Of a stretch of 64,000 bases of DNA, positions 4,888-8,649 are shown one piece after another. Source of the stretch: Rhodoferax ferrireducens T118. GTDB taxonomy: Bacteria > Pseudomonadota > Gammaproteobacteria > Burkholderiales > Burkholderiaceae_C. How positions within the stretch are numbered: the first letter of the stretch is position 1; each line of letters starts with the position of its first letter. The stretch covers positions 3,968,001 through 4,032,000 of the forward strand of contig NC_007908.1 of assembly GCF_000013605.1 (NCBI RefSeq), read 5' to 3'. Made by a program: the position numbers and the translations under genes. The notes below the pieces were generated by a model. That model saw only the letters and a program-made list of their open reading frames with translations, did no database searches and had not been told where the DNA came from.

Positions 4888-6864
4888 TTAGCGCCCGCTC
4901 AGGAATAATTTCTCAAATTCTGCGGCGGGCACGGGGCGGCTGGTCAGATAACCCTGGAACTGGTCGCAGCCCTGGGTTTGCAAATAGGCCAGCTGCTCTT
5001 TGTTTTCCACCCCCTCGGCCAGCACTTTCAGGCGCAAGCTGTGCGCCATGGCAATGATGGCCGTGACAATTTCCATGTCGTCGCGGTGCGCCGGAATATC
5101 GTCAATAAAGCGCTTGTCGATTTTCAGCACATCCAGGGGAAACAGCTTGAGATAAGCCAGTGACGAGTAGCCGGTGCCAAAGTCGTCAATCGCCAGGCGC
5201 ACACCGAGAGCTTTGAGCCGGTCGAGCATCTGGATGGCCTGGGCTTCACGCTGCATCAGGGCGCTTTCGGTCAACTCCAGTTCCAAAAACGCCGCCGGAT
5301 ATCCGGTATCACGCAGCACCTGGGCCACGGTCTGGCTGATGTCACCCTGCAAAAACTGGTAGGCCGAGAGATTGACCGCCAGGGTGAGCGTGGGCAGGCC
5401 CGCCGCGCGCCAGCGCTGACCTTGCTGACAGGTTTCTCGCAACACCCAGTCATCGATTTCGCCGATCAAACCGGTCGCCTCTGCGATGGTGATGAAGCGC
5501 GCCGGCGGTACCAGGCCTTCGATCGGGCACTGCCAGCGCACCAAGGCTTCGGCACCGACGATGCGCCCGCTGGGGATGTCCACTTGCGGCTGGTAATACA
5601 CGCGCAGCTCGCCCTGCGTGATGGCGCGGCGCAAACGCACTTCAATGTCGATGCGCGCACGCGCGGCTTGGGTCAGGCTCTCGGAAAAATACGCAAACCG
5701 GCCGCGCCCTTCGATTTTGGCCTGGTACAACGCGCTGTCGGCCTGTTGCAGCATCAACTCGGGCGTGAGGCCGTTGTCCGGATAAATACTGATGCCCACA
5801 CTCGCCCCAATGCGCACTTCAACGCCGCTGGACAAGCCATAGGGCTCGCTCAAGACACGGATGATGTCATTGGCCACCCGCGCCGCCTGTTCGGCCCCGG
5901 CCACGTCTTCCATCAACACGGAAAATTCGTCGCCACCAAAGCGGCCGACCGTGTCGATGGTGCGCACCTGCTTGACCAGCCGGGTGGCCACCAGCTGCAA
6001 TAACTCATCACCCACCAGATGACCAAAACTGTCGTTGATGTCCTTGAAACGATCCAGATCAAGCATCAGCAGCGCCAGATGCGTGCCGTCCCGCTGCGCC
6101 AGCTCAATGCCGTGCTGCAACCGTGACAGCAGCAACAAGCGGTTCGGCAAGCGTGTCAAGGGGTCGTGGTGGGCCAGGAAATCGAGCTCCAGCTGCGAAC
6201 TGCGCAGTTTGGACAGGTCGGTCAACACCGCCACGTAATTGCAGACCCTGCCGGTGTGGTCCCTGATCACGTCGATGCTGATCAATTGCGGATAAATCTC
6301 GCTGTTTTTGCGGCGATTCCAGACTTCACCCTGCCAATGCCCGCTGACGTTGATGCTGTCCCACATCGCCGCGTAAAACGCGCTGTCATGCCGACCCGAG
6401 CGCAGCAGCGCCGGCGTTTGGTCAAGAACGTCAGCCGCGCTGTACCCGGTGATCTCGGAGAACGCGGGGTTGATGCGCACGATGCGCTGCGCGCTATCGG
6501 TCACCATCAGCCCTTCGCGGGTGCTGTCAAACACCGTGTCGGCCAGATGCAATCCAAGGTCCGACGTCTTGCGCTCGGTGATGTCGCGCACACAAATCAC
6601 GAAAGCCGGTTGTTTGTCCCAGGTGATGGGGGCCGAGCGCAACTCGGCCCAGCCAATGCCGCTGGGGCGAATCAGGTTGATGTCTTGACGGGTTTCGCCG
6701 GAGTGGATCGGCACGGCCAGATCTTTACCCACCAGCTCGCCACGCTCGAACAGGCGCTCGGCGCTTTCATTGGCATAAAGCACCACGCCACGCTGATCCA
6801 CCACCACGATGCCATCGCTGATGGTGGTGAGAATCAATTGAAAATTGATCAGATTTTCTGTCAT
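4888..6864 (-). CDS. PAS-PAS-GGDEF-EAL cyclic-di-GMP enzyme
   Basis: 658 residues without membrane helices. Two PAS sensor domains (about 1-100 and 105-220) precede a GGDEF domain with an intact GGDEF at 310-314 and an RxxD inhibitory site (R301-D304) exactly five residues before it. An EAL domain follows, with EALVRW at 439-444 and the DDFGTGYSSL loop typical of active phosphodiesterases. Both synthesis and breakdown of c-di-GMP are therefore possible. It is the last gene of a minus-strand operon, 42 bp after the REC-KaiB gene, which suggests that it is the output of that kinase/regulator pair. The second PAS closely resembles one in the trp-operon cyclase (shared [14 protein letters not shown]). 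Confidence 0.9.
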   Translation of the reverse strand: MTENLINFQLILTTISDGIVVVDQRGVVLYANESAERLFERGELVGKDLAVPIHSGETRQDINLIRPSGIGWAELRSAPITWDKQPAFVICVRDITERKTSDLGLHLADTVFDSTREGLMVTDSAQRIVRINPAFSEITGYSAADVLDQTPALLRSGRHDSAFYAAMWDSINVSGHWQGEVWNRRKNSEIYPQLISIDVIRDHTGRVCNYVAVLTDLSKLRSSQLELDFLAHHDPLTRLPNRLLLLSRLQHGIELAQRDGTHLALLMLDLDRFKDINDSFGHLVGDELLQLVATRLVKQVRTIDTVGRFGGDEFSVLMEDVAGAEQAARVANDIIRVLSEPYGLSSGVEVRIGASVGISIYPDNGLTPELMLQQADSALYQAKIEGRGRFAYFSESLTQAARARIDIEVRLRRAITQGELRVYYQPQVDIPSGRIVGAEALVRWQCPIEGLVPPARFITIAEATGLIGEIDDWVLRETCQQGQRWRAAGLPTLTLAVNLSAYQFLQGDISQTVAQVLRDTGYPAAFLELELTESALMQREAQAIQMLDRLKALGVRLAIDDFGTGYSSLAYLKLFPLDVLKIDKRFIDDIPAHRDDMEIVTAIIAMAHSLRLKVLAEGVENKEQLAYLQTQGCDQFQGYLTSRPVPAAEFEKLFLSGR

Positions 6865-6906: not shown

Positions 6907-7596
6907 TTACAAGACGACGGTGCCCGCGCCGTGCCCGTTTTCGGCCGTGATGGCCGACAGCACCGAATGCATGCGCGACAGATCGCCCAGCAGTTTGAGC
7001 ACCGGCTCCGGCACTTCGCGCACCAGCATCGGGGTGGCGAAAACATCTTTTTCCAGGGCCTTCTCGGGCATGCCCAGCACCTCGACCACGTTGAGCACCC
7101 AAAAGCCCGCCCGGTACGTGGCGGCCAACACGTTGCTGAGCTGATCGACGACTTTTTGAATCTCGGGGTTGACCGACACCACATACAGGGTCAGCGAGAT
7201 CCTGTGGTTGTCTTTGCTCACATTGCTGAGGCTGCGCACCGAGCGTGCAATGTGCCGTATCTGGGTGGATGACAGCGGCTTGTTGGCCAACTGAAAGGTC
7301 ATGCCTTCGGCTTGTGCCTGCTTTAAATCGTCAAGATACTCCTGCGAGAAGGCGGTGACGATGTAGATGTTGAATGTGGGGTCCATGGCCAGCAGACGGC
7401 GCATGGTCTCAACCCCATCAATCCCGGGCATTTTCAGGTCCAGAAAGATCAAATCCGGGCGTTCTTCTCTGGCCATGGCGATGCCTTGCAGGCCGTCTTC
7501 GGCCACGCGCACCACGCAGCCGATCTCGCCGAGCACCAGCTGGAACGAGCCGCGCACGGCCGCGTCATCGTCAATTACCAGGATAGTTTGTGTCAT
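6907..7596 (-). CDS. Response regulator fused to a C-terminal KaiB-like domain
   Basis: 229 residues in two parts. Residues 1-118 form a receiver domain with acidic D9-D11, phospho-acceptor D53 in FLDLKMPG, T81 and K106 in the KPL motif, so it should accept phosphate. After a short linker, residues about 133-214 read like KaiB: LTLYVV, VLNVVEVLGMPEKA, then FATPMLV-x-EVP-x-PV and LLGDLS, matching the KaiB signature (ATPTL, PVR, IGDLS). KaiB is the thioredoxin-like partner of the clock ATPase KaiC and also forms the sensor domain of the kinase SasA. There is no DNA-binding domain. The gene sits 24 bp after a histidine kinase and before a GGDEF-EAL gene. A role through protein contacts is inferred. 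No kaiC is visible in the window. Confidence 0.85.
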   Translation of the reverse strand: MTQTILVIDDDAAVRGSFQLVLGEIGCVVRVAEDGLQGIAMAREERPDLIFLDLKMPGIDGVETMRRLLAMDPTFNIYIVTAFSQEYLDDLKQAQAEGMTFQLANKPLSSTQIRHIARSVRSLSNVSKDNHRISLTLYVVSVNPEIQKVVDQLSNVLAATYRAGFWVLNVVEVLGMPEKALEKDVFATPMLVREVPEPVLKLLGDLSRMHSVLSAITAENGHGAGTVVL

Positions 7597-7620: not shown

Positions 7621-8649
7621 TTATTTTGGGTTGAATGTTAGCCGGAAACAGCAGCCTGACTCCGGCAAGTTGTCGGTACTGATGCTCCCGCCCACCTCCT
7701 GCATCAGATGCCTGGATACCGACAGACCCAGACCCGTGCCTTTGCCAACCGGCTTGGTGGTAAAGAAGGGGTCAAAGATTTTTTCGCGAATTTCCTCCGG
7801 GATGCCGGGCCCGTTGTCACAGACGAACAGAATGACCTGGCCACCTTCAAGCCGGGCGCTGATGGTGATGCGCTGCTGGGTCTGTCCGGCCATCGCATCG
7901 CGGGCGTTGAGCAGCAAATTCACCAACACTTGTTGCAGGCTGCCCGCGCTGCATTGGATGGGCGGCAGGTCTGGCGGCAAATCGATCCGAACCTGCACGG
8001 CATTTTTGGTCAGCTCACTTTGGAGCAAGTCAACGGTCTTGTTAACCGTTGGCGGCAGGTCACAGCGCTCTTGCTGGCCTGCGTCAGGCCGAACGAAGAT
8101 CAGCATGTTGGATACGATCTTCTTGATCCGGTCAATTTCGTGCAGCGCCTTGTTCAGCACCTCTTTCGAACTGGCGTCGGTCGCTTTGTCTCTGGCGTGT
8201 TCAACGTAATTCATGACACCCATCAAGGGATTGTTGATCTCATGGGCCACACCACCCACCATGGTGCCCAGGGCCGACAGCCTTTCGATCTGGATCATGT
8301 GCTCGCGATTTTCCAGCTCCTGGCGTGCCCGCTCCAGTCGCAGTGCATCTTCCTGGCGCAACAGGACCAGGGCCCGCTGCTGGTCGTTGTTGTGCTGCGC
8401 CAGCGCGGTTTGTTGATCCTGCAAGGGAAGAAACACCAACAGGTACAGAGCGGGGACTTTGATCAGAATCAAAGCCATGACGGCGACCACCGCCCACAAG
8501 GAATCGCTTGCCTTGCTGCCCGGCACCGACTCCAAGACAACGTTCATGCCCAGATGGATGAACACCTCAGCCGCGATGACCACCAGCACCAGCCGGATGA
8601 CCACGCCAAGCGGGCTCAGACCGGTCTTTTCGAGAATAATTTTGCCCAT
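7621..8649 (-). CDS. Membrane sensor histidine kinase, first gene of the REC-KaiB operon
   Basis: 342 residues. Two hydrophobic helices (about 14-36 and 52-75) flank a short periplasmic loop too small for a classical sensor domain. A coiled coil (about 78-120) leads into the H box GGVAHEINNPLMG with the phospho-accepting H136. The ATPase domain shows NARDAM (N box), DNGPGIPEEI (G1), a DPFFTTKP segment and GTGLGLSV (G2), so all catalytic boxes are present. The next gene downstream is the REC-KaiB regulator, its probable phosphotransfer partner. The signal sensed is unknown. Confidence 0.9.
   Translation of the reverse strand: MGKIILEKTGLSPLGVVIRLVLVVIAAEVFIHLGMNVVLESVPGSKASDSLWAVVAVMALILIKVPALYLLVFLPLQDQQTALAQHNNDQQRALVLLRQEDALRLERARQELENREHMIQIERLSALGTMVGGVAHEINNPLMGVMNYVEHARDKATDASSKEVLNKALHEIDRIKKIVSNMLIFVRPDAGQQERCDLPPTVNKTVDLLQSELTKNAVQVRIDLPPDLPPIQCSAGSLQQVLVNLLLNARDAMAGQTQQRITISARLEGGQVILFVCDNGPGIPEEIREKIFDPFFTTKPVGKGTGLGLSVSRHLMQEVGGSISTDNLPESGCCFRLTFNPK

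Follow-up and report, generated by a model that had tools for sequence, protein, structure and literature searches.

Rhodoferax ferrireducens T118 encodes a response regulator in which a receiver domain is followed by a C-terminal KaiB domain (REC-KaiB), and much of the meaning of this protein is held by the two genes that flank it. The explanation that we favor, with moderate confidence, is a two-component system operating without KaiC: the receiver would control the KaiB domain, which is probably fold-switched and would act on PAS1, the first PAS domain of the third gene product. Its support comes from what can be read in the sequence: the domains, the intact phosphorylation residues, the gene order, the adjacency of PAS1, and the fact that no KaiC was found.

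REC-KaiB lies on the minus strand at 6907..7596 of the window (the whole 64,000-nucleotide stretch that we analyzed), and its ORF runs from ATG to stop over 229 aa. The original prediction of a receiver fused to a C-terminal KaiB domain was borne out by Pfam, by a profile search of PDB sequences, and by an alignment of relatives; that prediction had mentioned neither the strand nor the flanking genes. The receiver (residues 5–115; 7252..7584, minus strand) matches Response_reg (PF00072) with 77.1 bits (E = 1.5e-21) and has D53, T81, and K106 intact. The KaiB domain (residues 137–211; 6964..7188, minus strand) also matches KaiB sequences in the PDB and belongs to the KaiB family by its match to PF07689 (36.1 bits, above the curated cut-off of 27; E = 5.5e-9). 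With this significant profile match, the refuting check proposed for the C-terminal half left the prediction standing, and the motifs on which the prediction was built, LTLYVV (135), FATPMLV (186), EVPEPV, and LLGDLS, are all present. Searched against PDB sequences with phmmer, residues 123–229 (the C-terminal 107 aa) matched KaiB chains at 4.3e-11. A profile of 15 sequences, the window protein and 14 relatives, matched them at 2.7e-27 and further reached Legionella Lpp1115 (1.2e-16), 8ubh (2.6e-15), which we take to be the KaiB-TV4 structure, and SasA (1.1e-4).

In an alignment of the window protein with 15 relatives, all 16 sequences match both Response_reg and KaiB in Pfam (E ≤ 0.001). D9, D10, D53, T81, and K106, the residues expected of a response regulator, are invariant in all 16, D53 and K106 having been named as intact from the outset. 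Chance resemblance to KaiB is ruled out by the Pfam match, the PDB profile, and the matches across this alignment. REC-KaiB misses the NCBIfam equivalog models for circadian KaiB (TIGR02654, 42.7 vs 145.3; NF006798, 43.5 vs 110). Beyond Response_reg and KaiB, no Pfam domain was matched at E ≤ 0.001, and there is no KaiA-like C-terminal domain. The sequence likewise agrees that a DNA-binding domain is absent, and output by protein contact, as had been proposed, is the natural reading of such a fusion. A viral origin was rejected, as no relative of the KaiB part was present in the viral contigs searched, and the PHROGs matches, all over the receiver part, were to families without an assigned function. 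With the full-length protein as the tblastn query, 588 plasmid records matched, all at <60% identity; the best 20 of the 588 had 25–38% identity, and the annotated ones were mostly response regulators or other signaling proteins.

The three genes share a strand in the order histidine kinase, REC-KaiB, PAS1-PAS2-GGDEF-EAL and are separated by 24 and 42 nt. The kinase (342 aa; 7621..8649, minus strand), 24 nt upstream of REC-KaiB, has HisKA and HATPase_c domains in Pfam, an H-box with H136, and two N-terminal hydrophobic segments. The kinase and REC-KaiB are separate genes, unlike SasA, in which a KaiB-like domain and a kinase share one chain. The PAS-PAS-GGDEF-EAL protein (658 aa; 4888..6864, minus strand), whose gene starts 42 nt downstream, was recognized by Pfam and has GGDEF, upstream RxxD, and EAL motifs. 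Its best NCBIfam model is phosphodiesterase DibA (724 bits vs a cut-off of 980). PAS1 corresponds to its first 105 aa (6550..6864, minus strand). The next gene after the cassette, in convergent orientation, encodes glutamate-cysteine ligase.

Our scan of genome contigs retained the best 80 loci, 16 of which (L037–L052) contain both REC and KaiB. These come from Comamonadaceae, Gallionella, other proteobacterial bins, Methylomonas, Methylobacter, and other Methylococcaceae, together with an anammox bin (L051) and an alphaproteobacterial bin in which REC and KaiB are two adjacent ORFs (L052). In 15 of the 16 loci, the same strand carries a kinase gene upstream, in L051 with a lone receiver in between. 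The gene after REC-KaiB encodes a GGDEF-EAL protein in 11 loci and a PAS-hybrid kinase in two (L039 and L050), neither type lies directly downstream in L047 and L051, and the GGDEF-EAL gene of L052 is divergent. The aligned kinase part of L037–L050 is 51–70% identical to the window kinase, and the kinase inputs vary among those examined (two hydrophobic segments, CHASE3, PAS, or AAA-GAF). In the Methylomonas locus (L041:1-3969), the cassette kinase is giant, its core being preceded by AAA and GAF parts and by a TPR-like match; the start of this kinase lies outside the locus, and its input side is unlike that of the window kinase.

Within its own family, REC-KaiB was recognized in 1 of 299 sampled genomes. 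Apart from that of T118, no core-clade REC-KaiB was found in a class sample (369 genomes) or a phylum sample (398 genomes), in which an attached receiver was checked only for matches with loci and some matches came without a locus. In many genomes, the class, phylum, and PAS1 searches scored only a portion of the initial candidates, and weaker PAS1-like or KaiB-like domains may therefore be missed. In the methanotroph family that includes Methylomonas (201 genomes), a KaiB match is present in 63 genomes and, as judged by score and frame length, is part of a REC-KaiB in 35, of which 33 were read as loci and two (G1096 and G1161) rest on score and frame length. In 30 loci (L184–L213; six of the genomes already among the 16 above), REC and KaiB always share one ORF, the third gene is GGDEF-EAL in 21 and a kinase in 9, and an upstream kinase is present in 29, the contig of L213 starting too close. 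In two other loci (L218:249-6218 and L219:387-6256), REC-KaiB follows a kinase ORF that exceeds 1,700 aa, and the 12-kb stretch gave no match to PAS1.

PAS1 is kept across cassettes, and the output domain behind it varies. Over ~105 aa, the 29 sequences of GGDEF-EAL type and the 11 of kinase type share a mean identity of 59%. PAS1 is retained while the output behind it switches between GGDEF-EAL and hybrid kinase. The comparison covered 41 of 46 sources, several of them the same genome fetched twice: 29 GGDEF-EAL, 11 kinase, and one unclassed (L040, with a GGDEF-EAL third gene by BLAST). L047 was set aside, L206 was skipped by the pattern, and L051, L208, and L209 had no third-gene ORF by the rule used. 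In L201, PAS1 is the sole PAS domain ahead of the kinase.

In T118 itself, PAS1 scores 177 bits and the runner-up 27 bits. Among 262 sequences, PAS1 domains of at least 34.8 bits are confined to loci with KaiB or a KaiB remnant, and the best score elsewhere is 24.8 bits, a comparison biased by the fact that these loci were fetched for KaiB or REC. Many KaiB loci are without PAS1, and the kaiBC-linked kinases there score <20 bits per domain. At E ≤ 1e-15, the 201 methanotroph-family genomes gave 37 PAS1 matches in 36 genomes. Thirty-three matches are 16–664 nt from a REC-KaiB; of the other four, one (G1141) is separated by 52 nt from a stand-alone KaiB, one (G1190) follows kaiB and kaiC, and two (G1060 and G1126) adjoin a KaiB remnant. 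REC-KaiB is present in 35 of these genomes, PAS1 in 36, and both side by side in 33, and a Fisher value for this association overstates independence, since cassette genes co-occur anyway and the genomes are related. Some cases speak against the favored explanation: REC-KaiB is present without a PAS1 match at this threshold in G1117 and G1135, and the L051 stretch has no PAS1 match. In two loci, a short KaiB remnant (L216:5898-6200 and L217:6236-6538) sits directly beside an open PAS1-GGDEF-EAL gene, and neither a receiver nor a kinase was matched within the 12 kb searched. The persistence of two PAS1 genes by mere KaiB remnants means that PAS1 proteins may act without KaiB.

In the system that we favor, the neighboring histidine kinase would phosphorylate D53 of REC-KaiB, and phosphorylation would alter the accessibility, exposure, or position of the KaiB domain. 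The KaiB domain would then bind PAS1 of the third gene product. The result of binding would be a change in c-di-GMP turnover, or in kinase activity where PAS1 of a relative precedes a hybrid kinase; binding could be activating or inhibiting, either direction being possible.

The regularity of the kinase could point to another target. It accompanies REC-KaiB about as consistently as the third gene does (15/16 and 29/30 loci in the two sets), and SasA sets a precedent for KaiB-like domains residing in kinases (PMC6378743). The KaiB domain might accordingly bind the upstream kinase, or dimerize, and so tune phosphotransfer, the third gene being an independent PAS sensor in the same operon. We regard this as doubtful. 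PAS1 persists through the exchange of outputs, and PAS1-type proteins adjoin stand-alone KaiB in loci where no kinase-REC pair was seen directly upstream on the same strand (L215, after kaiBC; L223; L224; and L257).

The fold state of the KaiB domain bears on how the receiver might control it. The switch positions of KaiB are K58, G89, and D91, and the double mutant G89A/D91R is mostly fold-switched (PMC8059507, PMC6378743). The same positions are numbered K57, G88, and D90 in PMC5520375, which notes that even in KaiB1 their conservation is not high. In an alignment with 5jwo, the K58, G89, and D91 positions of Thermosynechococcus KaiB correspond to D184, A215, and T217 of REC-KaiB, which is thus without the residue types of a metamorphic KaiB. 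Among 37 fused sequences, the K58 position is D, E, or N in 36, the G89 position is A in 29, and the D91 position is T in 35; in 94 other KaiBs, G occupies the G89 position in 60 and D the D91 position in 55.

We also modeled the structure. Mean pLDDT was 66.6 for the KaiB domain and 66.3 for the full-length protein, with most of the C-terminal half of KaiB below 65. Ranks 1–7 of the PDB matches to the domain model were 5jyt, 5jwr (two chains), 5n8y, 8fwj, 5jwo, and 4kun, all fold-switched or complex-bound KaiB, followed at rank 8 by 1r5p; the best E was only 0.0023, and no match reached 0.001. Entries 5jyt, 5jwr, and 5jwo are titled as fold-switch-stabilized, 5n8y and 8fwj contain KaiB with KaiC, and 4kun is Legionella KaiB (Lpp1115), crystallized in the fold-switched state (PMC10808063). 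We took 1r5p as a ground-state structure from a remark on earlier crystals (PMC6378743). Among the 50 Foldseek matches listed for the full-length model, only the receiver was matched. With a best E of 0.0023, the fold match favors, without proving, a fixed thioredoxin-like, fold-switched state of the KaiB domain, and from 15 sequences the fold state is beyond firm decision.

These data weigh on the idea that phosphorylation of the receiver drives the KaiB domain from the ground state into the fold-switched state, as a slow metamorphic switch. KaiB is a known fold switcher, and its fold-switched form binds the CikA pseudo-receiver through the β2 strand (PMC8059507, PMC6378743), so docking of receiver and KaiB within one chain is conceivable. 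Nevertheless, we consider such a switch unlikely: the residues at the three switch positions are changed in most of the 37 fused sequences, G89A being half of G89A/D91R, and the domain model matches fold-switched structures first, if weakly.

The original prediction had also spoken of a clock-like domain under phosphorelay control and proposed a genome search for kaiC. That search found no KaiC partner, and no second KaiB, in the T118 genome, which is rated 100% complete, and the clock-like reading is therefore unsupported for this organism. The best TIGR02655 match, in a 475-aa frame, scored 21.3 bits. PF06745 gave five matches, four of them above the cut-off, and this model also matches in 14 of 14 control genomes. 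One of the frames matching PF06745 (523 aa) presumably encodes ATP synthase alpha, and the remaining ones look by size like what we take to be RadA, DnaB, and RecA. With no KaiC found in the same genome, REC-KaiB does not qualify as the KaiB of a KaiBC system.

Counting T118, KaiC was detected in 13 of the 46 genomes with REC-KaiB or a split pair: 0 of 1 for T118, 2 of 16 relatives (G305 and G307), and 11 of 29 further methanotroph-family genomes. The threshold was E ≤ 1e-20 for the latter 29 and E ≤ 0.001 for T118 and the 16 relatives, weak matches of <30 bits not being counted. Since drafts make up many of these genomes, the absence of KaiC from any one of them is weak evidence; the overall pattern is less weak. 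In all 13 KaiC-bearing genomes, a KaiC adjoins a separate stand-alone KaiB. Within the 29, KaiC occurs in exactly the 11 genomes that also carry a stand-alone KaiB, and the 18 without KaiC have no second KaiB match either. G1175 also holds another KaiC match, a weaker one, with no stand-alone KaiB beside it. That REC-KaiB is a clock component acting on KaiC in trans is, in our judgment, very unlikely. KaiB family membership and the 13 genomes with KaiC speak for it, but no KaiC was found in the complete T118 genome or in 33 of the 46 genomes, many of them drafts, and where KaiC is present, one pairs with its own KaiB. For T118, where KaiC was not found, we reject clock function through KaiC.

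Unfused and more distant arrangements bear on the history of the fusion. In the methanotroph-family locus L214, the order is kinase, REC, a receiver with a KaiB-half-like start, KaiB, and PAS1-PAS-GGDEF-EAL. The third of these ORFs (L214:5597-6106) encodes 169 aa, of which the initial ~45 look like the N-terminal half of KaiB and precede a complete receiver, perhaps the leftover of a tandem duplication. In L261, from the class of the anammox genome, a Cache-HAMP-PAS kinase is followed by REC, KaiB, and Cache-HAMP-PAS-PAS1-GGDEF-EAL. In L258, from the anammox genome G313, receivers are followed by KaiB, REC-KaiB, and a PAS1 hybrid kinase. G313 (L227, L243, L249, L252, and L253–L256) gave eight matches to KaiB, a receiver preceding KaiB in four of these, and none to KaiC. 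Stand-alone KaiB, with or without KaiC, adjoins GGDEF-type genes in other bacteria (L215, L223, L224, L225, and L226). A PAS1-like domain lies beside the stand-alone KaiB in the first four, and the order in L215 is kaiB, kaiC, PAS1-PAS-GGDEF-EAL. Receivers fused to or adjoining KaiB outside the core clade score 70–119 bits against the window receiver; the best receiver in loci without KaiB scores 60.8 bits, and other receivers inside KaiB loci reach at most 50.7.

In a tree of 133 KaiB domains, 36 of the 37 fused sequences and the unfused KaiB of L214 form one clade (100/100) on a long stem. The KaiB of L051 groups with stand-alone KaiBs, a join flagged as two long branches. A single clade for 18 fused rows was rejected (AU test, 71 rows, p = 0.0006), and with it a single origin of all REC-KaiB fusions, on 86 columns with long branches. 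This suggests, short of proof, that the REC-KaiB fusion arose more than once. An accidental or decaying fusion without conserved function, which would fit its rarity in its own family (1/299 sampled genomes), has a negligible chance of being correct, being contradicted by the conservation of the fused KaiB domain (37 distinct sequences, of which 36 join L214 in the 100/100 clade), by invariant phosphorylation residues, and by conserved gene order.

REC-KaiB has partial counterparts among known systems. With stand-alone KaiB of KaiBC and KaiABC systems, it shares the KaiB domain, for which both Pfam and the PDB profile gave significant matches; it differs in the fused receiver, the altered switch residues, its separate long-stem clade, and in that no KaiC was found. 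Non-cyanobacterial kaiBC clusters are described with a kinase or GGDEF/EAL gene directly downstream (PMC3164672, the Ramlibacter paper), an arrangement that L215 matches. Like REC-KaiB, SasA wires a KaiB-like, thioredoxin-like domain into a two-component system (PMC6378743), but there it is the N-terminal sensor of a kinase and reads KaiC, whereas here it is the C-terminal part of a response regulator and KaiC was not found. KaiA3 of Synechocystis is described as a receiver with a phosphorylation site fused to a Kai domain, in that case a KaiA-like C-terminus with KaiB3 and KaiC3 as partners, in contrast to the KaiB C-terminus of REC-KaiB (PMC11372060). Elongated cyanobacterial KaiB1 and KaiB-4 carry an N-terminal extension of ~150 aa, for which PMC5520375 reports no conserved domain and no homologs outside cyanobacteria; that of REC-KaiB is a canonical receiver. 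The KaiB domain of one elongated cyanobacterial KaiB is fold-switched by NMR (PMC10808063). A receiver-fold domain also contacts KaiB when the CikA pseudo-receiver binds fold-switched KaiB (PMC6378743, PMC12632262), but that contact is made in trans by a pseudo-receiver, whereas REC-KaiB joins KaiB to an intact receiver in one chain. In the open-licence full-text literature, which largely excludes subscription papers, we recognized no receiver-KaiB protein; domain-architecture databases may list the combination.

A broader reading, which we put forward tentatively, is that KaiB is at root a docking protein for PAS1 as its dedicated receptor domain, with KaiC and a phosphorylated receiver as exchangeable controls. 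The branch without KaiC would then be a signaling system in its own right, extending from proteobacteria to the anammox class, with repeated REC-KaiB fusion. If this is true, kaiB-kaiC-PAS1-effector would stand on one side and HK-REC-KaiB-PAS1-effector on the other. Reportedly, c-di-GMP has already come up in work on the cyanobacterial rhythm (PMC13001216). Through the cassette, a Kai-family domain gains a candidate direct connection to c-di-GMP enzymes, which goes further than the gene neighborhoods described in PMC3164672. PAS1 is a specific candidate partner of the KaiB domain, testable with purified proteins. KaiB is known mainly as the partner of KaiC, and a conserved cassette with KaiB as a phosphorelay output, present in genomes that yielded no KaiC, opens the question of what KaiB does beyond the clock.
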